DNA of 32,646 nucleotides, from the NCBI GenBank assembly GCA_017450695.1, contig JAFSTA010000040.1, forward strand, positions 1-32,646, read 5' to 3'. Both the position numbers and the translations under genes were made by a program. The notes below the pieces were generated by a model. It was not told the DNA's origin and made no database searches. It saw only the letters and a program-made list of their open reading frames with translations. Shown in pieces: positions 1 through 30,447 of the stretch. The DNA is from Kiritimatiellia bacterium. GTDB taxonomy: Bacteria > Verrucomicrobiota > Kiritimatiellia > RFP12 > UBA1067. How positions within the stretch are numbered: position 1 is the stretch's first letter; the number at the start of each line of letters is the position of its first letter.

Positions 1-78
1 AAGCGGGGGGCGGGGGGGGGGGTCGGGGGATGCCCCCGTCTCCTTGGTTCCTCGCACACCGCCCCCCAACCACCGAAC
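1..78 (-). repeat. G/C-rich region downstream of truB with degenerate minisatellite unit
   Basis: The plus strand has a run of 6 G (5-10), then 11 G (12-22), then 5 G (25-29) that pairs with 5 C (33-37) around a 3-nt loop. Read on the minus strand, the stretch from about 48 down to 1 (CCAAGGAGACGGGGGC, then C-rich) resembles one unit of the tandem array at 11194-11760, so it is probably a diverged copy. Between it and truB lies one AACCACCG octamer that touches the truB stop codon. No gene is visible. Confidence 0.6.
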
Positions 79-816
79 CTACAGGCAATCGCGGAGGCGG
101 TCGAGGGCGGAGGGGATCGGGATGACGTGCGCCTGGAGCTGGGCTTGCGTCCACTGTCCGAGCGTGGTGTAGGAGACGGCCTCGTCCGTCGTGAAGGGAC
201 CGGACTGGACGCGGCGCAGTTCCTGCAGACAGGCCCCGCATCCAAGGAGCTGGCCGAGGTCGTGCGCGATCGTCCGGACATACGTCCCTTTCGTGCAGAG
301 GATCTCGAAGGAGAAGAGCGGCGGCGTCCACTCCGTGATTTCCAGCTTATACACATGCACGAAGCGTTGCTTCCGTTCGACATCCTCGCCCATGCGCGCC
401 TTGTGGAAGAGGCGGCAGCCGTTGACGCGGACGGCGCTGACCATCGGCGGCGTCTGGAAGATGTCGCCCCGGAAATTCCGGAGAGCCTTCTCCACATCCT
501 CCCGCGTCACGGCCTCGCACGGCCGTTGCGCCACGATCTCGCCCTCGGAATCCTGCGTGTTGGTTTCCGTCCCCAGCAGGATTTTGCCGACGTACCGCTT
601 GTCTTTCGCCAGCATGCTGTCGAAGTACTTCGTCGCCTTCCCCAGCAGGATCACGAGAAGCCCCGACACGTTGGGGTCCAGCGTCCCGCCGTGCCCCGCC
701 TTCTCGATCTGGAAGACCTTCCGTACGCGGTTGACGACATCGTGTGAGGTCATGCCGACGGGCTTATCGACCAGCAGAAAGCCGTCGATCTGAAATGGAT
801 TCGGCCAGGATTTCAT
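79..816 (-). CDS. truB: tRNA pseudouridine(55) synthase TruB
   Basis: Converts U55 of the tRNA T-loop to pseudouridine in the cytoplasm. The GGTLDP motif carries the catalytic Asp (D47), after the family's N-terminal DGFLLVDKP block; GTYVRTIAHDLG near residue 185 is also typical. At 245 aa it is shorter than the roughly 300-aa enterobacterial enzyme and appears to lack most of the C-terminal PUA-like part. The open frame continues upstream to 918, but the ATG at 816 is preferred: it overlaps the rbfA stop codon (ATGA), and the extra upstream residues do not look like TruB. Last gene of the operon with glgB, tsaD and rbfA. Its TAG stop lies at the edge of an intergenic octamer repeat. Confidence 0.95.
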   Translation of the reverse strand: MKSWPNPFQIDGFLLVDKPVGMTSHDVVNRVRKVFQIEKAGHGGTLDPNVSGLLVILLGKATKYFDSMLAKDKRYVGKILLGTETNTQDSEGEIVAQRPCEAVTREDVEKALRNFRGDIFQTPPMVSAVRVNGCRLFHKARMGEDVERKQRFVHVYKLEITEWTPPLFSFEILCTKGTYVRTIAHDLGQLLGCGACLQELRRVQSGPFTTDEAVSYTTLGQWTQAQLQAHVIPIPSALDRLRDCL

Positions 817-5507: not shown

Positions 5508-6198
5508 ATGAGAAAGCTGTTGATAGTCGCCATTTGGGCGTTCGCCAGCGCCTTGTATGCCGGCGTGCCCGTCGATGCGCAGACCGGGAACAGGATCCGC
5601 GTCTGCACCAATGAATTGACCTTTGCCTGGGATTGGGACTGGGAGTGGATTCCGTCCAGTGCCCAGACCGCGACGGTCGTCGCGAGGGATACGGGGGGGG
5701 GGAATTCTGTTCAGCCAGAACATCTCGCGCCCCACTTCCTCCGTGACCTGGAACCTCTCGAACCTGATTGAGCCGAAGGTCCAGAGCAAGCGGGTCAACG
5801 TCACGCTCAGCTTCCCGCGCATCGCCGTTATGACGGCGTCGCGGACGGCCTCGTATGAGCTGCGGCAAGGCTCGTTCTCGCCGCGCGTCCGCGCCTGCGA
5901 GACCAACAGCGCGGGCTGGCGCCGGTTCGAGCTGCCGGTGACCTTCGACTTCAACGCGCAGTGGTTCCGCAACGCCTCGCAAATCACCTACATCCAGTGG
6001 AAGGATGTCATTGATCCGTCCATCCCCCTCTACGCACCGCCGTACAGGAATACCTGGGAGGGTTCGGACGGTTTCCTGACCGTCACCAACGGGTATCTTC
6101 CGGAGAGTATCTACCTCGCGTCGATCCACGAGGGCAACACGCGGCTCGCGCAATGCGAAATCTGCAATATGCAGGGCATGATGATCTTCATCCGCTAA
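5508..6198 (+). CDS. Secreted protein of unknown function, frame interrupted at a G10 tract
   Basis: The first part (5508-5702) begins MRKLLIVAIWAFASALYAG, a clear signal peptide, behind a perfect AGGAGG. After TVVARDTGGG the frame enters junk ending at 5771. The frame shifted by one base continues convincingly from GILFSQNISRPTSSVTWNLS to MIFIR and stops at 6198. The break falls in ten consecutive G (5693-5702); with nine the gene would encode one continuous protein of about 229 aa. It is probably a beta-rich extracellular protein; no known family was recognised. First gene of an operon with the two SUMF1-fold proteins, 16 nt before the next start. Either a phase-variable OFF state, a recent frameshift, or a homopolymer read error. 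Confidence 0.75.
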
Positions 6199-7519: not shown

Positions 7520-7540
7520 CGAGTAGGTAGTGGGTAGTGG
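7520..7540 (+). repeat. Short GGTAGTG-type repeat between the SUMF1 paralogs
   Basis: GAGTAGGTAGTGGGTAGTGG starts immediately after the TGA stop of copy A. It belongs to the GGTAG/TACC family seen after the stop codons of the DapA-like and FG-GAP genes. Confidence 0.5.
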
Positions 7541-7565
7541 AATTGAGCAAGAAGGAGAAATGAAA

Positions 7566-8924: not shown

Positions 8925-9192
8925 GTATTGCGTACGCGACGGATCGCGGACCTCTCATTCGGGCAACGAGGACGTTGCCCCTCCCGTTCTCTCGCGCCTC
9001 CGCGTACCCCGTCGCGTCCGCTGCGTAGCGACGGCGCCCTCGCCGTCGGCTTTCAGGGTAGCGACACTCTTGTCGCTTTTCGGCGGCTCGTCAATTTAAC
9101 CATTGAACCATTTCAAAGCGAAGCGATTTCATTTTCTAATACACGGAACGGATCGATGAGGAAGCGGCACCGGCCCGCCCATTCGTTTCTTC
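8925..9192. repeat. Intergenic hairpin cluster and dispersed element downstream of the SUMF1 operon
   Basis: Three perfect hairpins with 4-nt loops follow each other: GGGCAACG/CGTTGCCC (8961-8980, loop AGGA), CGACGGCG/CGCCGTCG (9029-9048, loop CCCT) and AGCGACA/TGTCGCT (9060-9077, loop CTCT, followed by TTTT). From 9060 to about 9137 the sequence is an inverted copy of the element at 26637-26710. The 8950-9003 part is an inverted relative of 21036-21085. No convincing gene. Confidence 0.6.
9060..9080 (+). terminator. Possible terminator of the SUMF1 operon
   Basis: Stem AGCGACA/TGTCGCT with loop CTCT, followed by TTTT then CGG. It is short of T residues and also belongs to a dispersed repeat, so its role as a terminator is tentative. 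Confidence 0.4.
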
Positions 9193-11193: not shown

Positions 11194-11760
11194 CAAGGAA
11201 ACGGGGGACACCCCCGAACCCCTGCGGGAAGGGGCGGTGCAAGGAAACGAGGGCACCCCCGAACCCCTGCGGGAAGGGGACGGTGCAAGGAAAAGGGGCA
11301 GCCCCCCCGAACCCCCGCAGCAAGGGGGGGGACGGTGCAAGGAAAAGGGGGACGCCCACGAACCCCTGCGGCAAGGGGGCGGTGCAAGGAAACGAGGGCA
11401 CCCCCGAACCCCTGCGGGAAGGGGACGGTGCAAGGAAAAGGGGGACGCCCACGAACCCCTGCGGGAAGGGGACGGTGCAAGGAAAAGGGGCAGCCCCCCC
11501 GAACCCCTGCGGGAAGGGGGCGGTGCAAGGAAACGAGGGCACCCCCGAACCCCTGCGGGAAGGGGACGGTGCAAGGAAAAGGGGCAGCCCCCCCGAACCC
11601 CCGCAGCAAGGGGGGGGACGGTGCAAGGAAAAGGGGGACGCCCACGAACCCCCGCAGCAAGGGGGGGTGCAAGGAAAAGGGGGACACCCCCGAACCCCTG
11701 CGGCAAGGGGACGGTGCAAGGAAACGAGGGCACCCCCGGGGCGCCGCGGCAAGGGGGTTC
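11194..11760. repeat. GC-rich minisatellite, 12 units of 46-52 bp
   Basis: Units start with CAAGGAAA at 11194, 11240, 11286, 11338, 11385, 11431, 11478, 11526, 11572, 11624, 11670 and 11717. Each carries a C-rich block, CCCC(T/C)GCGG or GCAGCAAG, and a G-rich block, so each can form a GGGG/CCCC hairpin. Units fall into interleaved variants; 11240-11337 and 11526-11623 are identical over 98 bp, showing block duplication. All six reading frames are open through most of the array, so the predicted long proteins here are spurious. It fills the divergent gap between pgsA and the GH127 gene. Confidence 0.9.
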
Positions 11761-14008: not shown

Positions 14009-14848
14009 ATGAAATTCTGTTGTATCGGATGGATGGCGGCGGCGGTCTTGCTGTCGGGATGTTTTCGGCAGAGCGCGCCGGAACGGCTGGTCACGGCGAA
14101 CAGCGTGGCGGCAGCCGTGTCCAATCGCGTGGAGGTCCAGGCGATCGAGTTGCCCGGCCAGCCCTTCGCGGCGGTGCCGAAGGAGTTCGCGGAGATGCCG
14201 AAGCTGACGCAGCTGCAACTGCGCGGAGCCACGGGCGTTTCCAATCTGGCGGGACTGGACCAGCTCAAGGGGCTGACCCTGCTCGATCTCTCGGAGACGA
14301 AGCTGGCGGCCATGCCGAAAGAGGTCTTCGCCCTTCCTGCGCTGGAAACGCTCTACTTCGCCGACAACGAACTGAAGGAGCTGCCGCCCGAAATCGGACA
14401 GCTGGCGGCGTTGAAGTACCTGAACCTCGACCGGAACCACCTGGCGAAACTGCCGGACGGGATCGGGAAACTCCCCGAACTGCGTTGGCTGCGTCTCAAC
14501 CAAAACGCGCTCACCGAACTGCCCGCCACGCTCGCGGAGGCGAAGAAGCTCCAGCGCATTTATCTGGAGAAGAACCAGTTCAAGGCGGTTCCCGAATGCC
14601 TCAAGGAAATGCCCCTGCTCGAAGACGTCGCGCTGGACAACAACCCGATCGAGACGATTCCGGAGTGGTTCACCAAGCTCCCCAAAGTCCGGCAGATCAA
14701 CCTCGACGGGACGAAGATCACCAAACTCCCGAAAGACCTCAGCGGCTGGCGCCGTCTCCAAATCCTCTCGCTCACCCGCTGCAAGCTGAGCGACGAGGAG
14801 CAAGACCGCATCCGCGCCGCCCTACCCCAGACCCACATCGCGTTCTAG
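14009..14848 (+). CDS. Leucine-rich-repeat lipoprotein
   Basis: 279 aa. The N-terminus MKFCCIGWMAAAVLLSGC ends in a lipobox (LLSGC, Cys18), so it is probably lipid-anchored. From about residue 50 to 260 there are roughly nine leucine-rich repeats of about 23 residues, e.g. LKYLNLDRNHLAKLPDGIG and LRWLRLNQNALTELPATLA, of the bacterial LPxx type. Such proteins usually bind partners; the partner is unknown. AAGGAGA overlaps the xseB stop. Its TAG stop is followed at once by the composite repeat at 14849-14939. Confidence 0.88.
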   Translation: MKFCCIGWMAAAVLLSGCFRQSAPERLVTANSVAAAVSNRVEVQAIELPGQPFAAVPKEFAEMPKLTQLQLRGATGVSNLAGLDQLKGLTLLDLSETKLAAMPKEVFALPALETLYFADNELKELPPEIGQLAALKYLNLDRNHLAKLPDGIGKLPELRWLRLNQNALTELPATLAEAKKLQRIYLEKNQFKAVPECLKEMPLLEDVALDNNPIETIPEWFTKLPKVRQINLDGTKITKLPKDLSGWRRLQILSLTRCKLSDEEQDRIRAALPQTHIAF

Positions 14849-14939
14849 GGTGATTGGGTGGTTGGGTGGTTAGCCTGCCGTGTACCGTCTAGAAGCTCTA
14901 GAATCCCTAGCCTACCAGCTACCAGCTACTAGCTACCAC
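14849..14939 (+). repeat. Composite short-tandem-repeat element, copy 1
   Basis: It fills the entire gap between two convergent stop codons. Order on the plus strand: GGGTGGTT octamers (14855-14870), a linker with TGCCGTGTACCG, CTAGAAGCTCTAGAATCC nonamers (14889-14908), then TACCAGC/TACTAGC heptamers (14912-14939). The LRR gene stop TAG is at one edge and the DapA-like gene stop TAG at the other. An inverted, longer copy lies at 18968-19106. Confidence 0.85.
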
Positions 14940-15833
14940 CTACAAGCTACGCAAACACCTGCGTACCTGTTTCCAGGCGGCGGCATCCAGCGGCTGGAAT
15001 GGCGCGGCGAGGACGTTTTGGATCAGGCCCATTTCGGCGAGGGCGCATTTGACCGCCTGGAGGAAACCGATCTGTCCCTGTCCGAGTCCGTAGAGCTTGT
15101 AGCTGCTGGCGGTGGTGAATGCCTGCAGATTCCGGACCGTGGCGAGATCGCCTTCCTTCGCCGCCCGGTAGAGCGCGGAGAAGGCCTTCGGCCAAAGGTT
15201 CGCGCCGGTACAGACACCGCCGTCCGCTCCCAGCAGGACCGCCTCGCCCATTGCCTCGTCCGGTCCCATGAAGAGCGAGAACCGTTCGCGGAACGGCGCC
15301 AGCGCGACGCGGAACTTGTTGAAGAGCGCGATGATGGAACTGGAGTCTTTCATGCCGATGATATTCGGATGCGCGGCAAGTTTCGCGACCGTTTCCGGAG
15401 CCAGCACGGTCTCCGTGTGGGCGGGCATGTTGTAGATGACGAGCGGAAGCGGAACGCGGTTTGCCAGTTCGGTGTACCAGTCGATGCACTGTTCCTGCGT
15501 CAGCTGGAAATAGTACGGGGGTGCGGCGACGACGCCGGACGCACCCAACGCCTTGCACCGTTTGGCGAAGGAGGCCGCCGCCTCCAGATTCGTTTCCGTA
15601 ATGCCGACCAACACCGGCACGCGCTTTTTCACAAGGCAGCAAACGGTTTTGACGAGGGCGGTGCGCACGGCGTAGTCCAAGTGCGGGCCTTCGCCGGTCG
15701 TGCCGAGCAGGAAGATGCCATCGACCCCGCCGTCCAGCAGATGCGCGACCATTTTCTCTGTCCCGAAGGGATCCAGTTGCCGCCGCTCGTCCAGCGGCGT
15801 GACCATCGGGGGAATCAATCCTTCTAGTTTCAT
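14940..15833 (-). CDS. DapA/N-acetylneuraminate lyase family protein
   Basis: 297 aa, a class I aldolase of the dihydrodipicolinate synthase/NanA family, which form or cleave pyruvate C-C bonds through a Lys Schiff base. GTTGEGPHL near residue 44, the Tyr in VIYNMPAHT and the Schiff-base Lys in IIGMKDSS are visible. Specificity (dihydrodipicolinate synthase, sialic-acid lyase or keto-deoxy sugar aldolase) cannot be decided; the location beside a secreted protein away from lysine genes favours sugar-acid metabolism. The frame is open to 15995, but the extra residues translate repeats; ATG at 15833 has GGAAAG upstream. Its last codons and TAG stop merge into the GGTAGCT repeat. Confidence 0.88.
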   Translation of the reverse strand: MKLEGLIPPMVTPLDERRQLDPFGTEKMVAHLLDGGVDGIFLLGTTGEGPHLDYAVRTALVKTVCCLVKKRVPVLVGITETNLEAAASFAKRCKALGASGVVAAPPYYFQLTQEQCIDWYTELANRVPLPLVIYNMPAHTETVLAPETVAKLAAHPNIIGMKDSSSIIALFNKFRVALAPFRERFSLFMGPDEAMGEAVLLGADGGVCTGANLWPKAFSALYRAAKEGDLATVRNLQAFTTASSYKLYGLGQGQIGFLQAVKCALAEMGLIQNVLAAPFQPLDAAAWKQVRRCLRSL

Positions 15834-15879: not shown

Positions 15880-15995
15880 GGTTGGGTGGTTGGGTTTGGG
15901 AATCGAAAGCTGTCGATAGCTGTCGATAGCTGTCGATTGCACAGTCGATAGCTGTCGATTACGTTTGTTGCCTCCCCCCAGCTACCACCTACCAC
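15880..15995 (-). repeat. Composite short-tandem-repeat element with ATCGACAGCT decamers
   Basis: In the minus direction it starts at the TAG of the FG-GAP gene: GGTGGTAG heptamers (15997-15980), then ATCGACAGCT-type decamers (about 15960-15903), then AACCACCC octamers (about 15898-15880). The order heptamer, central repeat, octamer is the same as in the inverted reading of 14849-14939, with a different central repeat. No gene is present. Confidence 0.8.
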
Positions 15996-18926
15996 CTACC
16001 GGCCATCCTTTTTCCAGTCGTTGTTCTTCAGGTGGTAGAGGAAGCCGTCCTCGCAGCCGAGGATCACTTCCGGGATGCCGTCATTGTCGAAATCGACGGT
16101 GGTGGGGCTGGTGGTGTGGGCGGCGAGCTGCTGTCCGCTCATGTCGCCCATGTCCTTGAAGAACCAGTTGCCGTCCTTCGCCTCGACCTGGAGGAAGAGG
16201 CGCGAGTTCTTGCCGCTCATGATGATGTCGGCCTTGCCGTCGCCGTTCCAGTCGCAGATGGTGATCTTGCGCCGCCCCGTCGCGCCGCCGATGCCGCCGT
16301 TCCACACCTTGGGATCCTTGCGCGCGGTGGGATGGATCACTTCTCCGTTCTCGTTGCGGAACGCCTTGCGCGGCGCCTTCACGATGAGCTTTCCGTCCTT
16401 CTTCGCGCGCTCGAAGAAGGCGAGGTCTCCCTCCTGATCCACCATGACCAAGTCCGTCAGCCCGTCGCCGTTCATGTCGAACATGACCGGCGTGGTGCGC
16501 CACTGCGTGATCAGCTCCTTCGGATTGTCGGTCTTCTTCGGCTTGTACCAGCCGAAATCGAGTTCCGGCTGCTCGCCGTTCCACTCCACCTCGATGCCGA
16601 TCGGCGCGGCGAGCTTCGGGGCCTTGCGCGTCCCGATGTTGCGGAAGAGCAGCGGCTTGCCCCAGATGGAGCTTGCCATGATGTCCGGCAAGCCGTCCCC
16701 GTCCCAGTCGGCGACGCTCAGGCAGGTGTATCCCCACTTCGCCTCCGCCGGTCCCTGGATGGAACCGTTGTGGCCCGCCATAATGCGAATCGGACTTGCA
16801 GTGAGCATTCCGCCGCGCGAGGCGAAGTCGCGCTTCTCGTCAAACGGTTCGCAGTCCAGCAGTTTCGCCTCCGCCCACTTCGGCTCCGCCACGCCCGGAC
16901 CGCTCAGGTTCTCGAAGAAGCAGATGTATCCGGTGGAGTTGCCGCAAATCAGGTCGTAGTCGCCGTCGCCGTCCCAATCGACGCCCGCCGGGGTGCAGAG
17001 GATACCAAAGTTCACGCGATCCGCTTCCTGGCGCAGGAAGACCGGCGGATCAAAGGCCGGCATCCGGTCGATCACCTTTCCCGTGTTGCGGTAGAAGGCG
17101 ACGCGCCCGTCCTCCTCGCCGGAGACCATGTCCATCAACCCGTCGCCATCCCAATCGACTGCGGCGGGCGTGATGATGCACAGTTCCCCGTGCAGACGCG
17201 CGCCCTTCGAATCGCGCAGCAGGCGACCGGAGGTATAGACCGGCGCGGTGCGCGTCCCGATGTTCTCGTAGTAGGTGAGGTTGTCGAGGAAGTCGCCCAC
17301 GATGAGGTCGAGGTCGCCGTCCCTGTCCCAGTCGTGGAGCATCGGCATCGCGTTGCCGAAGACATCGACGGGCGTCTCGTTCTCCAAACGCACGATGCGC
17401 GGCGTACCCCACTTCTCCGCGCCGTCCGCACCGGACTCGTTGCGGATCCAATAGACGTGCCCGTGAATCTGCCCGTTCTTCCAGTTGCCGTTTTCGTCGT
17501 AGGCGTTGTGCCAGCCGTACTGCACCCAGTCGCCGATTCCGACAATCAGATCGTCCTTGCCGTCGCCGTCGTAGTCGGCAAGCCGCCACATATTGCAGCG
17601 GACACCGTTGTAGTGGATGTTGCCCGGCAGCCCCGCGAGCGGCCTGAGCCCTTCCCATCCCGTCTTCGGGAACTCCCAGGTGATCTGGTTCTGCCGCAGC
17701 ACCGCAATGCGCCCGTCGGGATAGGTCTTGGCGGAAACATTGCTGCATCCCTCTCCGACTTTCTTCGCGGGCTTGAAAACCGGAAAGGCGTTTTTCTTCC
17801 CCTTCTCCGTCGGGTTCTCGAAGTACCAGGTGCCGCGCCAAGTGGGGATGCCCCAGTTGGAGACGATGAGGTCGAGGTCGCCGTCCCCGTCGTAGTCAAA
17901 CGCCATCGGGTAACAGATCAACCCCGTCTTGAGGTAGGGCGTCGCCGCCGGGTTGTTGTACCGCAGCGGGGTGTAGTCGTGCGGACGAGACGGATCGAAC
18001 CGCTTGTACGCGAAACCCTTCGCCGACTTCCGCAGCCGCTCGGCGGCGACCAGCCGCCGCCGTTCCGTCACACCGGAAAGCGCGTCCGTCAGGTTCAGCA
18101 GATCGCAGGCCCCTTGTACACCGGTCGCGCGAACCACCGCCGTGCCGGTGTCGGGATTCCACGCGAGGATGCTCCCCGTGTGATCCGCGAAGCAGAACTC
18201 GCCGTGTACGAGGGCGGCGGAGAAGGCATTCTGAATCTGGATCGGAGTCCGCTGACGCTTCGCAACACCGGAGATCAAGTCGATCGATTCCGGTTGCTTG
18301 CAGGGAATCAGCAACCGGTCGCGGTCGTAATCGAAGAGCATTCCGCCGTGCGCCTGTGCGGGGGACGCGTAGGCGGCTTTGAGTACCGGTTTCCCGCCGG
18401 AAACATCGAACGCGGCAATCTCCCCGCTCCCGCGGTTGGCGATGTAGAGCAACCCGTCCGCGCCGAAGGCCAGCGTGCGCGGAACGGAGAGTCCCGTTGT
18501 CAAGCAGACACCGCCCTTGCCGTCGGAAAGACGATAACGGAAGAGCCTGTGCGCATTCGCGCCGAACGCGCTGGAAACGTAAAGGAAGTCGCCGTGAATC
18601 GCGAGACTCTCGGGACGCGCCTGTATCTTCGCCAGAACGCCCAGGTACTTGCCTTCCGGCGAGAACTTCAGGATCGCGCCCTTGGAGGAGTCGCCCAGCC
18701 GGTCGCCCAGATAGACGATTCCGTTGGCGGCGGCCACGCAGTGCGGTCCCTGCGCCTCTTTCCCTTTTTCGAGCCAGACGCCCTTCTTCGTCCACTCGTG
18801 CGCGTCCGACACGCGCCACTCTTCCACACAGACTTCCTCACGGACAACCAGAACACTCGTTTCCGAAAAGGCGGAAAGGGCGGAAACCGCCACCGCCACG
18901 CCGACAAAATTCAAAATCGTTTTCAT
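15996..18926 (-). CDS. Large secreted FG-GAP/VCBS repeat protein
   Basis: 976 aa with a probable signal peptide (MKTILNFVGVAVAVSALSAF). Residues about 60-300 look like an NHL-type propeller. From about 340 on there are nine calcium-binding FG-GAP loops of the form DxDGDGxxDL, e.g. FDYDGDGDLDLIV, DYDGDGKDDLIV, DWDGDGLMDMV, DWDGDGDYDLI, DWNGDGKADIIM and DFDNDGIPEVI. Such proteins are usually extracellular and bind glycans or partners; no catalytic residues can be assigned. It ends on TAG, the first bases of the GGTGGTAG repeat. The DapA-like gene lies downstream on the same strand, 162 bp away. Confidence 0.85.
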   Translation of the reverse strand: MKTILNFVGVAVAVSALSAFSETSVLVVREEVCVEEWRVSDAHEWTKKGVWLEKGKEAQGPHCVAAANGIVYLGDRLGDSSKGAILKFSPEGKYLGVLAKIQARPESLAIHGDFLYVSSAFGANAHRLFRYRLSDGKGGVCLTTGLSVPRTLAFGADGLLYIANRGSGEIAAFDVSGGKPVLKAAYASPAQAHGGMLFDYDRDRLLIPCKQPESIDLISGVAKRQRTPIQIQNAFSAALVHGEFCFADHTGSILAWNPDTGTAVVRATGVQGACDLLNLTDALSGVTERRRLVAAERLRKSAKGFAYKRFDPSRPHDYTPLRYNNPAATPYLKTGLICYPMAFDYDGDGDLDLIVSNWGIPTWRGTWYFENPTEKGKKNAFPVFKPAKKVGEGCSNVSAKTYPDGRIAVLRQNQITWEFPKTGWEGLRPLAGLPGNIHYNGVRCNMWRLADYDGDGKDDLIVGIGDWVQYGWHNAYDENGNWKNGQIHGHVYWIRNESGADGAEKWGTPRIVRLENETPVDVFGNAMPMLHDWDRDGDLDLIVGDFLDNLTYYENIGTRTAPVYTSGRLLRDSKGARLHGELCIITPAAVDWDGDGLMDMVSGEEDGRVAFYRNTGKVIDRMPAFDPPVFLRQEADRVNFGILCTPAGVDWDGDGDYDLICGNSTGYICFFENLSGPGVAEPKWAEAKLLDCEPFDEKRDFASRGGMLTASPIRIMAGHNGSIQGPAEAKWGYTCLSVADWDGDGLPDIMASSIWGKPLLFRNIGTRKAPKLAAPIGIEVEWNGEQPELDFGWYKPKKTDNPKELITQWRTTPVMFDMNGDGLTDLVMVDQEGDLAFFERAKKDGKLIVKAPRKAFRNENGEVIHPTARKDPKVWNGGIGGATGRRKITICDWNGDGKADIIMSGKNSRLFLQVEAKDGNWFFKDMGDMSGQQLAAHTTSPTTVDFDNDGIPEVILGCEDGFLYHLKNNDWKKDGR

Positions 18927-18967: not shown

Positions 18968-19106
18968 AAAGGCTGGTGGCTGGTAGGTAGTAGCTGGTAG
19001 GCTAGGGATTCTAGAGGTTCTAGGGATTCTAGAATTCTAGAGCTTCTAGGGATTCTAGAGCTTCTAGACTGTGCTCGGCGGGCTAACCACCCAACCACCT
19101 AACCTT
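18968..19106 (-). repeat. Composite short-tandem-repeat element, copy 2 (inverted relative to copy 1)
   Basis: In the minus direction: GGTGGTTGGGTGGTTAGCC, linker GCCGAGCACAGT, CTAGAAGCTCTAGAATCC nonamers expanded to about seven, then CTACCAGC heptamers. The same parts in the same order occur at 14849-14939 on the other strand. The two copies bracket the DapA-like and FG-GAP genes. The element starts 9 nt after the Nudix stop. Confidence 0.85.
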
Positions 19107-19111
19107 GATTT

Positions 19112-19573
19112 TCACGCCAGCCACTGGTCACCGCAGACGAGGTCGCGGCTTTCGGTGCTGAGCCAGGTCGGCAGCACGGCCTGCAGCGCGGGCGGCAACA
19201 GGTTCGCCTCGGCGAGGCGGTCGAGCGGGTGCCAGCAGAAGTCGATCCAGGACTCCTGCGCCTCCGCCGGTCGTTCGGGGGAGAGCGAGGGGATCGACAG
19301 CTCGAAGACGAGGTTGACTTCCGCGTGCGGTTCGCCTTTTTGCAGGAAGGAGTTCTCGCAGCAGCCGAGGAATCGTCCCGCCTTGGATTCCACGCCCAGT
19401 TCCTCGCGAATCTCGCGCTCCAACGCGAACCGCGCGGTTTCGCGGAATTCGATGTGGCCTCCGGGCAGGTAGGTCTTGTCCGATCCCTTGGCGAGGCAGA
19501 GCAGGATCTGCCCGTCTTTCACGCAGACTCCGCGCGCGATCACTTCGATTCGGGTATATTCGTCCGTGTCCAT
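19112..19573 (-). CDS. Nudix hydrolase
   Basis: 153 aa. The full Nudix box is present: G-x5-E-x7-REIxEELGV in GGHIEFRETARFALEREI and the residues after it (about 38-61). It hydrolyses a nucleoside diphosphate-X compound; substrate unknown. ATG at 19573, with AAGGAG about 11 nt upstream at the end of the preceding gene; gap to the GspG-like gene 4 nt, so they are probably cotranscribed. Confidence 0.9.
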   Translation of the reverse strand: MDTDEYTRIEVIARGVCVKDGQILLCLAKGSDKTYLPGGHIEFRETARFALEREIREELGVESKAGRFLGCCENSFLQKGEPHAEVNLVFELSIPSLSPERPAEAQESWIDFCWHPLDRLAEANLLPPALQAVLPTWLSTESRDLVCGDQWLA

Positions 19574-20765: not shown

Positions 20766-21165
20766 TTTTGGCGGGTGCGATATGCCCACGAGGCGCTTCG
20801 CGCCAGCTGAGAAGCGGGGAAGAAGGCAGTAGGGAATCATCGAAAGCTATCGACAGCTATCGACAGCAATCGACCACCGAACCACCCAACCACCCAACCA
20901 CCCAACCACCCGACCTTGAACCTATAGGCAAGACGCGGGGGCGACGCACGACCACAAAAGGCGGCGATACCGCCAGTACCGAACGGGGGACGCGCCCCGT
21001 CGCGTCCGCAACTGATTCTCACGCAGAGCCGCTGAGACGCGGAGAACGGGAGGGGCAACGTCCTCGTTGTCCGAATCGGGAGGGACGCGCCCCGTCGCGT
21101 CCGCAACGCCTAACCGCTTACCCAACGTAACACGCCTAACCCGCTTATCCGCCTTCCTTTCATTT
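20766..21165. repeat. Intergenic repeat mosaic upstream of corA
   Basis: 20792-20915 is a composite element (GGCGCTTCGCGCC hairpin, GGCAGTAGGGAATC, ATCGACAGCT decamers, AACCACCC octamers) nearly repeated at 22181-22290. It is followed by a GGCGG/CCGCC hairpin (20960-20974), two identical 26-bp copies of a GGACGCG/CGCGTCC hairpin segment (20987-21012 and 21082-21107), and a CGCAGAG/GAGACGCGGAG stretch. The part at 21036-21085 is an inverted relative of 8950-9003. No gene was recognised. Confidence 0.75.
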
Positions 21166-22168: not shown

Positions 22169-22449
22169 CCAGCGGGGGGCGGCTTGCGCCGCCAGCTGAG
22201 AAGAAGGCAGTAGGGAATCATCGATAGCTATCGAAGGCTATCGACAGCAATCGACCACCGAACCACCCAACCACCCGAGCCACCTAACCACCCAACCACC
22301 CAACCACCGAACCACCCAACCACCGAACCACCTAACCACCCAACCACCCAACCACCCAACCACCTAACCACCTAACCACCTAACCACCCAACCACCGAAC
22401 CACCCAACCACCGAACCACCCATCCACCCATCCACCGAACCACCCAACC
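22169..22449 (+). repeat. Composite repeat with about 24 AACCACCN octamers, up to the hrpA start
   Basis: After the corA TAG come a GGCGGC/GCCGCC hairpin (22178-22193), the GGCAGTAGGGAATC block and ATCGATAGCT decamers shared with 20792-20915. About 24 tandem octamers of AACCACC(C/G/T) follow (22253-22449) and run directly into the ATG of hrpA, leaving no Shine-Dalgarno. The other strand is GGTGGTTGGGTGG, able in principle to form a G-quadruplex. Confidence 0.9.
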
Positions 22450-27887: not shown

Positions 27888-27911
27888 CGCATATCAACAG
27901 GAGGTTTCATC

Positions 27912-28766
27912 ATGCTCGTCAATTTGGATGCCGTACTGAAAAAGGCGCAGGCCGAACACTACGCGGTCGGTCTCTTCAACACGCACGACACGGATATGCT
28001 CGAAGCGGCGATCACCGCCGCCGAGGAGGCGAACAGCCCGATCATCATCGGTACGGCGGAGGTGCTGCTGCCGTATGGCGATCTGCCGCTCATCACCCCC
28101 GCGCTGATCGCCGCCGCCCAGCGCACACGCGTTCCGGTCGTCGTCCATTACGACCACGGTCTGACCTTCGAGCGGACGATGGAGGCGCTCAAGCTCGGTT
28201 TCTCGTCGGTCATGTTCGACGCCTCGGCCTCGGCGTATGAGGAGAATGTCGCCGCAACGCGCGAGGTCGTCAAGATCGCCCACGCCTTTGGGGCGACGGT
28301 CGAAGGCGAGATCGGCCACATCGGTTCCGCGGCGGCGGGCGACGACCGCAGCAACCCCTACACGACCGTGGAAGAGGCGGTAGATTTCCAGTCGAAGACG
28401 GGCGTCGATGCGCTGGCCGTCGCCGTCGGGACCGCCCACGGCGTGTACAAGTCGAAGCCGAACCTGAACCTGCAGCGCATCCGCGAGATTCGCGCGGCGA
28501 TGGAGTGCCCGATCGTGCTGCACGGCGGATCGGGATTGTCGGACGACGACTTCCGCAACGCGATCCGCGACGGCGTGGCGAAGCTCAACATCCACACCGA
28601 CATGGTGGTCGCCGGGATGCGCGCGATGCGCGAGCAGTGCGAGGCGCACGACCCTGCCAAGCCCGCGACGTGGGACTACCTCGACACGCGCAAGGCGAAG
28701 GTCGAGGCGATCCGCAAGGTCATTCTCAACAAGCTGGAACTCTTCGGTTCCGTCGGAAAGGCGTAG
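27912..28766 (+). CDS. Class II fructose/tagatose-bisphosphate aldolase
   Basis: 284 aa zinc-dependent aldolase of the FbaA/GatY/KbaY group, cleaving a ketose bisphosphate into dihydroxyacetone phosphate and an aldehyde. Visible are VVHYDHG (zinc His and catalytic Asp), VEGEIGHIG, AVAVGTAHG (second zinc His) and LHGGSGLSDDDFRNAI; the length matches the tagatose type. Perfect AGGAGG (27899-27904) precedes the ATG. In this cassette it would finish the pathway after the deaminase and kinase. Confidence 0.88.
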   Translation: MLVNLDAVLKKAQAEHYAVGLFNTHDTDMLEAAITAAEEANSPIIIGTAEVLLPYGDLPLITPALIAAAQRTRVPVVVHYDHGLTFERTMEALKLGFSSVMFDASASAYEENVAATREVVKIAHAFGATVEGEIGHIGSAAAGDDRSNPYTTVEEAVDFQSKTGVDALAVAVGTAHGVYKSKPNLNLQRIREIRAAMECPIVLHGGSGLSDDDFRNAIRDGVAKLNIHTDMVVAGMRAMREQCEAHDPAKPATWDYLDTRKAKVEAIRKVILNKLELFGSVGKA

Positions 28767-28769
28767 CGC

Positions 28770-29474
28770 ATGAATGTATTGGCTATCGGTTGTCATCCCG
28801 ACGATGTGGAAATCGCCTGCGCGGGTACGCTCGCGAAGTGCGTGAAGCGCGGCGACCGCGTGGTCGTCGCCCACCTCTGCACGGGATCGCTCGGTCATGT
28901 GGTGATCCCGCCCGAGGAACTGGTTCCCATGCGCGCCGCCGAGGCGCGCGAGGCGGGCGCGTTGGCCGGCATCGAGGTGCTGGACGGTTTCTTCGGCGAC
29001 CTCGACATCTATTCGGACAACGCGCGTTCGCGGAATGAGGTGGTGGAGGTCATCCAGTACGCCCAGCCCGACTTCATCATCACCCACAATCCCGACGACT
29101 ACATGCCGGACCACACCGCGACCGCGAAGCTCGTCTTCGACGCCTCGTTCACCGCGACGCTCCCGAACTGGCCGTCCAAGACGAAGAAGCCCGCGAAGCT
29201 CGTCCCGATTTACTACATGGACACGCTGGCGGGCGTCAACTTCGTTCCCGACGAGTTCGTGGATATCACGGAGGAGATCGACCTCAAGATCCAGATGCTG
29301 GAATGCCACCATTCGCAACTGGACTGGATGCGCGAGCACGACCACATCGATTTCGCCGACATGGTGCGCACCTGCAGTCGGTACCGCGGCTACCAGTGCG
29401 GGGCCGGCTACGCCGAGGGGTTCCGGATGTGCAAGGCGTATCTGAAGGGAACCACGCGGCGCCTGCTGCCGTAA
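28770..29474 (+). CDS. PIG-L/LmbE-family N-acetylglucosaminyl deacetylase
   Basis: 234 aa. The zinc/catalytic signature CHPDDVE is at residues 8-14 and the second metal motif HNPDDYMPDH near 106-115; a SLGHVV loop and an R-x-x-E motif (MRAAEAREAG) also fit. Such enzymes remove the acetyl group from GlcNAc-containing compounds. It starts 3 nt after the aldolase stop, so translation is probably coupled. It would supply a free amino sugar to the NagB-like enzyme. Confidence 0.88.
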   Translation: MNVLAIGCHPDDVEIACAGTLAKCVKRGDRVVVAHLCTGSLGHVVIPPEELVPMRAAEAREAGALAGIEVLDGFFGDLDIYSDNARSRNEVVEVIQYAQPDFIITHNPDDYMPDHTATAKLVFDASFTATLPNWPSKTKKPAKLVPIYYMDTLAGVNFVPDEFVDITEEIDLKIQMLECHHSQLDWMREHDHIDFADMVRTCSRYRGYQCGAGYAEGFRMCKAYLKGTTRRLLP

Positions 29475-29490
29475 ATCGGAGGAGTCATCC

Positions 29491-30447
29491 ATGCGCAAGG
29501 CAATCGTCGGCGGATCGATTCTGGTCGATCGGATCAACGACATCAACGTCTATCCGAAGCCCGGGGAACTCGCGCGCATTTCCGCCGTTTCCCGGACACC
29601 TGGCGGACTCGTGCCGAACACGGGAACGGACATCCACGTCCTCGCCCCCGACATCCCTGTCTTCGCCTGCGGGAAAATCGGCGAAGACGATGACGGCCGT
29701 TACCTGATCGGGGAGTTGCAGCGGCGCGGACTGGACACGTCGGGCCTCGCGGTCACCGCCGACGAGCCGACCTCGTTCACCGACGTGATGAGCGTACCGG
29801 GCGGGGAGCGGACGTTCTTCAACTGTCCGGGCGCGAACGCCTCGTGGGGCTACGACGACTTCCCCTTCGACTTGGTTTCCGAAGGCGACATCGTGCTGCT
29901 GGGATATTTCCTGCTGCTGGCGAAGGTCGATGCGGGAGACGGCGTGCGGATGCTGCGGGAACTGAAACGGCGGGGTGCGATCACGGCGATCGACCTCGTG
30001 ACAGAGGACTCCGACCGGTACGCGCTCGTGCGCGAATGCCTGCCGTATGTCGATCACCTGATCGTCAACGAGACGGAGGCGGCACGTCTGGCGGGAGGCG
30101 ACCTTCCCGTCTCCGAGCTGCCGTCCGCGCTGTTGCGGTTCGGTGTACGGGAACGGGTCATCGTACACATGCCGGAGAAGGGAATCTCCTGCACGAAAGC
30201 GGGGATTCGTTCCGAATTCCCCTCGTGCCCGGTTCCGCCCAGTTTCATCAAGGGAAAGACGGGGGCGGGCGACGCCTTCTGCGCGGGTGCGCTGGTGGGC
30301 ATCTGGCGGGGACTCGACGAGCGGGAAATCCTGCGCCTGGGCGCCATCGCCGCGATCGGTGCGCTTTCCGCGCCGGGCGCCACCGAAGGAATGCGCTCCA
30401 TCGAGGAACTGGCGCACATAGCGGAAAAACTAAGCAACCGAGAGTAG
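29491..30447 (+). CDS. PfkB-family sugar kinase
   Basis: 318 aa. N-terminal GGSILVDRIN and ACGKIGEDDDG match PfkB kinases; the C-terminal signature GKTGAGDAFCAGALVG (about 252-267) has the catalytic Asp and anion hole. The substrate is not readable from sequence; the neighbouring deaminase and aldolase would fit a tagatose- or fructose-phosphate kinase. Strong GGAGGAG upstream of the ATG, 16 nt after the deacetylase stop. Confidence 0.85.
   Translation: MRKAIVGGSILVDRINDINVYPKPGELARISAVSRTPGGLVPNTGTDIHVLAPDIPVFACGKIGEDDDGRYLIGELQRRGLDTSGLAVTADEPTSFTDVMSVPGGERTFFNCPGANASWGYDDFPFDLVSEGDIVLLGYFLLLAKVDAGDGVRMLRELKRRGAITAIDLVTEDSDRYALVRECLPYVDHLIVNETEAARLAGGDLPVSELPSALLRFGVRERVIVHMPEKGISCTKAGIRSEFPSCPVPPSFIKGKTGAGDAFCAGALVGIWRGLDEREILRLGAIAAIGALSAPGATEGMRSIEELAHIAEKLSNRE

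Follow-up and report, generated by a model that had tools for sequence, protein, structure and literature searches.

A dispersed mosaic of short tandem repeats abutting two stop codons in a Kiritimatiellia genome

Repeat arrays at gene ends

The window, that is, the whole stretch of 32,646 nucleotides analysed here, is contig 208 of a draft genome of 5.03 Mb in 287 contigs. Its genes were named from Pfam matches, and gene ends were taken from a simple codon-based gene caller that made at least one antisense error (27894-29492). The closest relatives of the DapA-like protein encoded in the window come from Kiritimatiellia MAGs of rumen and gut samples. An Rfam search of the window gave no match. 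Tandem repeats, detected in intergenic and coding DNA using Tandem Repeats Finder, belong to about a dozen families, one of which is the TAGGTGG family (F1, octamer unit GGTTNGGT). The arrays considered here, several of them assembled into mosaics of types A and B, are as follows:

62-81, reverse strand: short F1-like array reading from the truB stop (79-81); TAG then GTTCGGTGGTTGGGG
7520-7542, forward strand: short 7-mer array (AGTGGGT) after SUMF1 copy A; TGA then CGAGTAGGTAGTGGGTAGTGG
14846-14848: stop of the LRR gene; TAG then GGTGATTGGGTGGTTGGGTGGTTAG, as read from the sequence
14849-14873, forward strand: F1 array (GGTTNGGT)n, left end of type B, beginning at the LRR stop
14874-14887, forward strand: single-copy spacer of type B, GCCTGCCGTGTACCG, whose form is common to other copies (AGCCCGCCGAGCACCG; alignment of 10 copies)
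14888-14910, forward strand: 9-mer module of type B, TCTAGAAGCTCTAGAATCCCTAG (F8; TCTAG 9-mer)
14911-14950, forward strand: 7-mer module (CTACCAG)n (F6), right end of type B, crossing the DapA-like stop into the last codons of that gene
14940-14942, reverse strand: stop of the DHDPS/DapA-like gene; TAG then GTGGTAGCTAGTAGCTGGTAG
15881-15995, forward strand: composite of an F1 array, (TCGATAGCTG)n (F5) and (CCACCTA)n, between the DapA-like start and the FG-GAP stop
15996-15998: stop of the FG-GAP protein gene; TAG then GTGGTAGGTGGTAGC
18971-19104, reverse strand: second type B copy, between the FG-GAP gene start and the Nudix stop; 9-mer module expanded
19112-19114: stop of the Nudix gene; TGA, 8 nt, then GGTTAGGTGGTTGGGTGGTTAG
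20791-20925, forward strand: type A mosaic (hairpin GGCGCTTCGCGCC, AGCTGAGAAG, GCAGTAGGGAATC, (ATCGACAGCT)n, (ACCACCCA)n) between the two start codons of divergent genes
22169-22449, forward strand: type A mosaic whose (ACCACCCA)n array has 24.5 copies; the mosaic begins at the CorA stop, and the long array (22254-22449) reaches to the ATG of the HrpA-like helicase gene

The initial annotation had cited seven genes with a repeat at or near the stop codon. Five of these stand as described (truB, LRR, DapA-like, FG-GAP and Nudix). SUMF1 copy A, with only 2.7 units, is a weak example, and the AraC gene runs from its TAG into GTGCGGGGGCAGTGCCGACTGTGCGGGGGCAGTGCC, which belongs to another, longer repeat family. 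The examples are not independent of each other, as the LRR and DapA-like arrays belong to a single element, one at each end, and the Nudix array lies beside a second copy of that element. The remark that the repeat can supply the stop itself describes a real but rare situation: a TAG overlaps a TAGGTGG-like repeat in four genes out of 600, and the window contributes two of these.

In 166 kb of intergenic sequence we detected 219 arrays, compared to 1-5 when the same length was regenerated with an identical trinucleotide make-up, and the F1 pattern occurred 210 times compared to 0-1 in the simulations; the G-rich repeats are real and far from chance. Array density is 12-fold higher between genes than within them (1.31 and 0.108 per kb, respectively). 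The further families include GCTGAGAA, CACGGAAYA, TTAAATGG, ATCGAYAGCT, CTACCAG (F6) and TCTAGAAGC; 7-mer arrays such as CTACCAG are present, but 8- and 9-mers prevail. Among F1 arrays of at least four units, shorter ones being left out of the tally, 18 have four units and 14 have five. The word GGTTGGGTGGTTNGGTGG occurs 109 times in this genome and is patchy elsewhere, being found in 8 of 59 relatives and in 9 of 387 other genomes of a phylum sample, with its reversed control almost absent. As a separate observation, CACGGAAYA arrays frequently form inverted pairs at most 60 nt apart (10 compared to 0.8 expected in a 1.2 Mb sample).

Composite elements and turnover of gene gaps

The interval 14849-14950 represents a single copy of the dispersed type B mosaic, which is made of (GGTTNGGT)n, a single-copy spacer, (TCTAGAAGC)n and (CTACCAG)n, and both of its ends read inward as TAGGTGG-like words. 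Because type B fills the entire gap between the convergent LRR and DapA-like genes, its two ends abut two stop codons. The second copy, at 18971-19104, matches 14849-14945 at 90-91% in two pieces, and a search with the 97-bp composite returned 25 full or partial matches in this genome, of which those in C249, C98, C40, C117 and C167 are nearly full length; in 40 other genomes of relatives, none was found whole and matches were at the level of arrays only. Aligned copies have the spacer TAAGCCCGCCGAGCACCGTCTAGAAT in common and vary in unit number. For type A (hairpin, GCTGAGAAG, GCAGTAGGGAATC, ATCGATAGCT array, ACCACCCA array), about 40 matches are scattered over the genome, including the two in the window, where 20791-20925 matches 22169-22290 at 92%. 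Module order is not random, since the hairpin is followed by GCTGAGAA 35 times (2.8 expected), F1 by F5 14 times (2.6 expected) and F1 by F8 seven times (1.4 expected).

These observations bear on the proposal of the initial annotation that an element inserts or expands at a TAGGTGG-like word at gene ends. Since the array at 14849 and several of the other cited arrays are the ends of dispersed composites with common single-copy spacers, the word is a property of the element ends and not a target word. The same spacers led us to drop telomere-like or terminal addition at breaks, which the inward polarity of the ends had suggested.

We compared the gene gaps with those of a sister species (G001) whose proteins are 83-90% identical. 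At the LRR/DapA-like gap, homology to the sister stops exactly at the LRR stop, and the 373 nt found there have no similarity to the 91 nt found here. The sister keeps the same TAG stop but continues into a different repeat, CTTCTAGCTTTTAGCTACTAGCTTTTAG, with no TAGGTGG, which again argues against insertion at that word. Here the DapA-like protein terminates within the CTACCAG array, whereas its sister ortholog extends nine residues further, and no TAGGTGG array follows the DapA-like gene in twelve further relatives. Elsewhere, the gap is longer by hundreds of bases in one species or the other (519 compared to 83 nt, and 50 compared to 454 nt); intergenic regions therefore turn over fast. Insertion and replacement would both be compatible with the comparison to the sister.

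For types A and B we saw no target-site duplication, terminal inverted repeat or dedicated transposase. A reverse transcriptase was considered as copying agent and set aside; the genome has one RVT_1 match. Integron attC sites, whose GTTRRRY resembles GTTGGGT, were rejected as an explanation: no integron integrase in the genome scores over the TIGR02249 cut-off, and the window genes point both ways.

A GTAG-tagged palindrome, GTAGCGACGGCGCCCTCGCCGTC, forms a REP-like family with 77 exact sites genome-wide and is present at 9025-9047 of the window. Copies flank the only clear Y1 (RAYT-like) transposase gene on both sides (G000:C137:7013-7192, locus L121) and apparently also lie inside its reading frame. 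RAYT-driven spread of the F1 mosaics was likewise rejected, as GTAG palindromes surround this gene and no array of F1, F2, F5 or F6 comes closer to it than 1.5 kb.

Placement relative to stops and starts

Positional statistics were obtained on 1.215 Mb of the 5.03 Mb genome by re-placing each array 2000 times at a random position and on a random strand inside its own intergenic region. A stop is followed within 50 nt by a sense F1 array in 16 cases, compared to 7.9 expected (p=0.0015), and the literal TAGGTGG lies within 15 nt after a stop 11 times, compared to 3.9 expected (p=0.0015). Antisense F1 arrays are fewer than expected after stops (5 compared to 8.0), and sense F1 arrays are depleted within 50 nt upstream of starts (0 compared to 6.5). 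The sister species behaves similarly, with F1 arrays after stops four times (1.0 expected), TAGGTGG within 50 nt after stops six times (1.8 expected) and no sense array within 50 nt upstream of a start (1.2 expected). The enrichment after stops relative to shuffled positions, on which the initial annotation had staked its proposal, is thus about two-fold and reproduced in a second species. F6 sense arrays also follow stops in excess (7 compared to 2.7, p=0.0085), although several families and distances were tested and the weaker p values have to be read accordingly. F3, F4, F5, F8 and F11, which lie in the same intergenic DNA, gave no excess after stops in this test, a further argument against insertion or expansion at the TAGGTGG word.

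The placement differs in other genera. We analyzed 20 intergenic arrays from up to 11 array-bearing genomes, in 3-kb loci around the matches. In this small sample, annotated with a gene model trained on the genome of the window, 18 of the 20 arrays have a start codon on their 5' side; ten lie in antisense within 30 nt of a start (3.9 expected, p=0.0012), two lie close after a stop (3.6 expected), and no sense array lies within 30 nt upstream of a start (3.9 expected). Stop anchoring is therefore not a general rule, because in these genera the array adjoins starts in antisense. The rule common to all is that the G-rich strand reads away from the gene boundary and is absent just upstream of starts; the preferred side of the gene differs by lineage, being the stop here and in the sister and the start elsewhere.

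Two readings would give gene boundaries a direct role. In the first, an element or expansion would be seeded at a TAGGTGG-like word at a gene end, with the TAG stop often serving as first unit. Besides the excess of the word after stops in both species, this is consistent with the over-representation of TAG among the stops of genes with an array within 12 nt (11 of 16 compared to 211 of 584, Fisher p=0.015, one of several tests and uncorrected), with the sister's CTTCTAGCTTTTAGCTACTAGCTTTTAG repeat, which continues the last bases of the LRR gene itself (TTCTAG), and with the DapA-like C-terminus running into the repeat. We nevertheless judge it unlikely, given that the word overlaps so few stops, that the cited array belongs to a dispersed composite with non-repeat spacers, and that arrays of other genera adjoin starts in antisense and not stops. 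In the second reading, an active process of this lineage would build short tandem words onto gene boundaries, outward and always with the same strand polarity, the last bases of the gene (e.g. TAG) providing the first unit and lineages differing in whether the stop or start side is used; this we consider distinctly improbable.

A clearly stop-linked element does exist in this genome, and it is distinct from the TAGGTGG array. It combines the hairpin GGCGC-NNN-GCGCC with subsequent AGCTGAGAAG and GCTGAGAA repeats and is found 8-50 nt downstream of stop codons, in sense orientation. This hairpin-(GCTGAGAA)n element follows stops 36 times, compared to 9.9 expected (p at most 0.0005), and never in reverse orientation (9.9 expected); in the sister the corresponding counts are 15 (4.3 expected) and 0 (4.5 expected). 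As an exact 18-mer it was found only in this genome and the sister among 60 genomes. Such strict orientation would be compatible with the proposal, also made in the initial annotation, that the arrays mark transcript 3' ends or act as insulators, or with a role of the neighbouring hairpin-(GCTGAGAA)n in ending or protecting mRNAs. However, the stop link concerns the GCTGAGAA element and not the TAGGTGG array, the GCTGAGAA stem has little covariation and no T run, and arrays also lie between divergent genes (20791-20925). Stem changes within this genome comprise 9 compensatory, 4 G-U and 19 broken pairs, and we did not find covariation convincing as proof of an RNA role. A 3'-end or insulator function appears very unlikely, and none of the findings requires it.

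Intergenic DNA also contains strings of hairpins with differing stems and the same TAAGTGG/TAAATGG linker (e.g. loci L098, L099 and L062), laid out as GGCGGC..GCCGCC TAAGT GGCCC..GGGCC TAAAT GGGGC..GCCCC.

Relation to known repeats and origin of the stop anchoring

Our literature search found no paper on such repeats in Kiritimatiellia. The nearest precedent for the placement is the GGGNATC or GGGGA(C/T)T repeats of Xanthomonas and Nostoc, short G-rich tandem repeats that are found genome-wide and are mostly intergenic. They lie at most 50 bp from a gene boundary, in sense orientation at stops and in antisense orientation at starts; some overlap the stop, and they are not associated with the function of the genes (Rehm et al. 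2015, PMC4692102). F1 arrays follow the same rule: they are sense after stops, antisense at starts and seldom sense ahead of a start, and the stop side predominates in this genome, the start side in other genera. F1 arrays differ from the GGGNATC repeats in that the unit is the octamer GGTTNGGT and not the heptamer GGGNATC/GGGGAYT, and in that they are built into mosaics with other arrays and spacers.

Arrays might also act through G-quadruplexes, as GGTTGGGTGGTTGGGTGG might fold into a two-tetrad quadruplex, either as DNA or within the 3' region of the mRNA, and be selected there. Four or more GG tracts with short loops are present, and the array is presumably close in form to the thrombin-binding aptamer. 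However, T positions in array interiors are as conserved as G positions (90-95% and 89-97%, respectively), which selection on G tracts alone would not predict, and the companion modules CTACCAG, TCTAGAAGC and ATCGATAGCT are not quadruplex formers. The even conservation of G and T, together with a unit in which seven of the eight positions are kept at 79-93% and the remaining one is free, fits a constraint on the word better than quadruplex selection alone. The shared placement rule speaks for this explanation, since the GGGNATC heptamers, with a preferred four units, form quadruplexes in vitro (PMC4692102). On balance we regard selection as quadruplexes as quite improbable.

Two other classes of repeats are comparable. 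The short tandemly repeated repetitive (STRR) sequences of cyanobacteria and the TAACTGA repeats of Beggiatoaceae are patchy intergenic 7-mer arrays with possible horizontal spread (PMC4679880). Like them, the arrays described here are patchy and intergenic, present in some relatives and absent from others; in contrast, TAACTGA arrays lie just upstream of starts, and here several unit types occur together in a fixed order. Bacterial interspersed mosaic elements (BIMEs) and REP sequences are intergenic composites of several modules, often downstream of genes, defined by a GTAG-tagged palindrome (PMC3733652). Types A and B are likewise dispersed composites of recurring modules in intergenic DNA, but they consist of tandem arrays and, by inspection, have no GTAG- or CGTC-tagged palindrome core; the genome's own GTAG REP family and Y1 transposase gene are separate from them, with no link to the transposase.

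Taken together, our results favor the interpretation that 14849-14950 is probably a copied, dispersed mosaic, and that its stop anchoring is a lineage-specific outcome of placement and not of insertion at a target word. Both mosaic types, along with looser assemblies drawn from about a dozen modules, would spread by copying between intergenic sites, after which arrays would change length through loss and gain of units. Settlement would then be filtered by what gene edges tolerate: the G-rich sense strand is depleted just upstream of starts, and the space just after a stop or on the antisense side of a start may be permissive. This interpretation is supported by the dispersed composites, the ordered modules, the fast turnover, the strand polarity and the depletion before starts. 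Several observations pull the other way. The sense excess after stops combined with the antisense deficit is not obviously a product of tolerance only, so that a direct preference may contribute, the conservation of the GGTTNGGT unit looks like a constraint on the word and not like neutral slippage, and types A and B have none of the usual marks of transposition looked for above.

The interpretation offered by the initial annotation is partly supported. The placement rule was already known from the GGGNATC repeats, and what is found here is the octamer GGTTNGGT set in mosaics, another form of a known kind of bacterial repeat and not a stop-seeking element. Intergenic short-repeat arrays with the same strand rule occur in unrelated phyla, in Xanthomonas, in Nostoc and now in Kiritimatiellia. 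This genome is unusually rich in such arrays, with recognisable copies; these copies, a sister with wholly different gaps and other genera with the word on the other side of the gene make placement selection and directed insertion testable against each other.

The window also contains repeats of other kinds. At 11194-11738, a 46-bp unit is repeated 11.5 times in tandem, and higher-order periods of 145 and 286 bp are superimposed on it. A stretch of about 100 bp at 21009-21106 is repeated at 88-96% in many contigs, and its copies are locally tandem, recurring every 120 bp (C8:3467-4027). Finally, nine consecutive G (5693-5702) occur close to the beginning of a small frame that resembles a secreted protein and lies upstream of SUMF1 copy A. 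The reading frame is interrupted at this run, which may reflect a sequencing error or a phase-variable tract.
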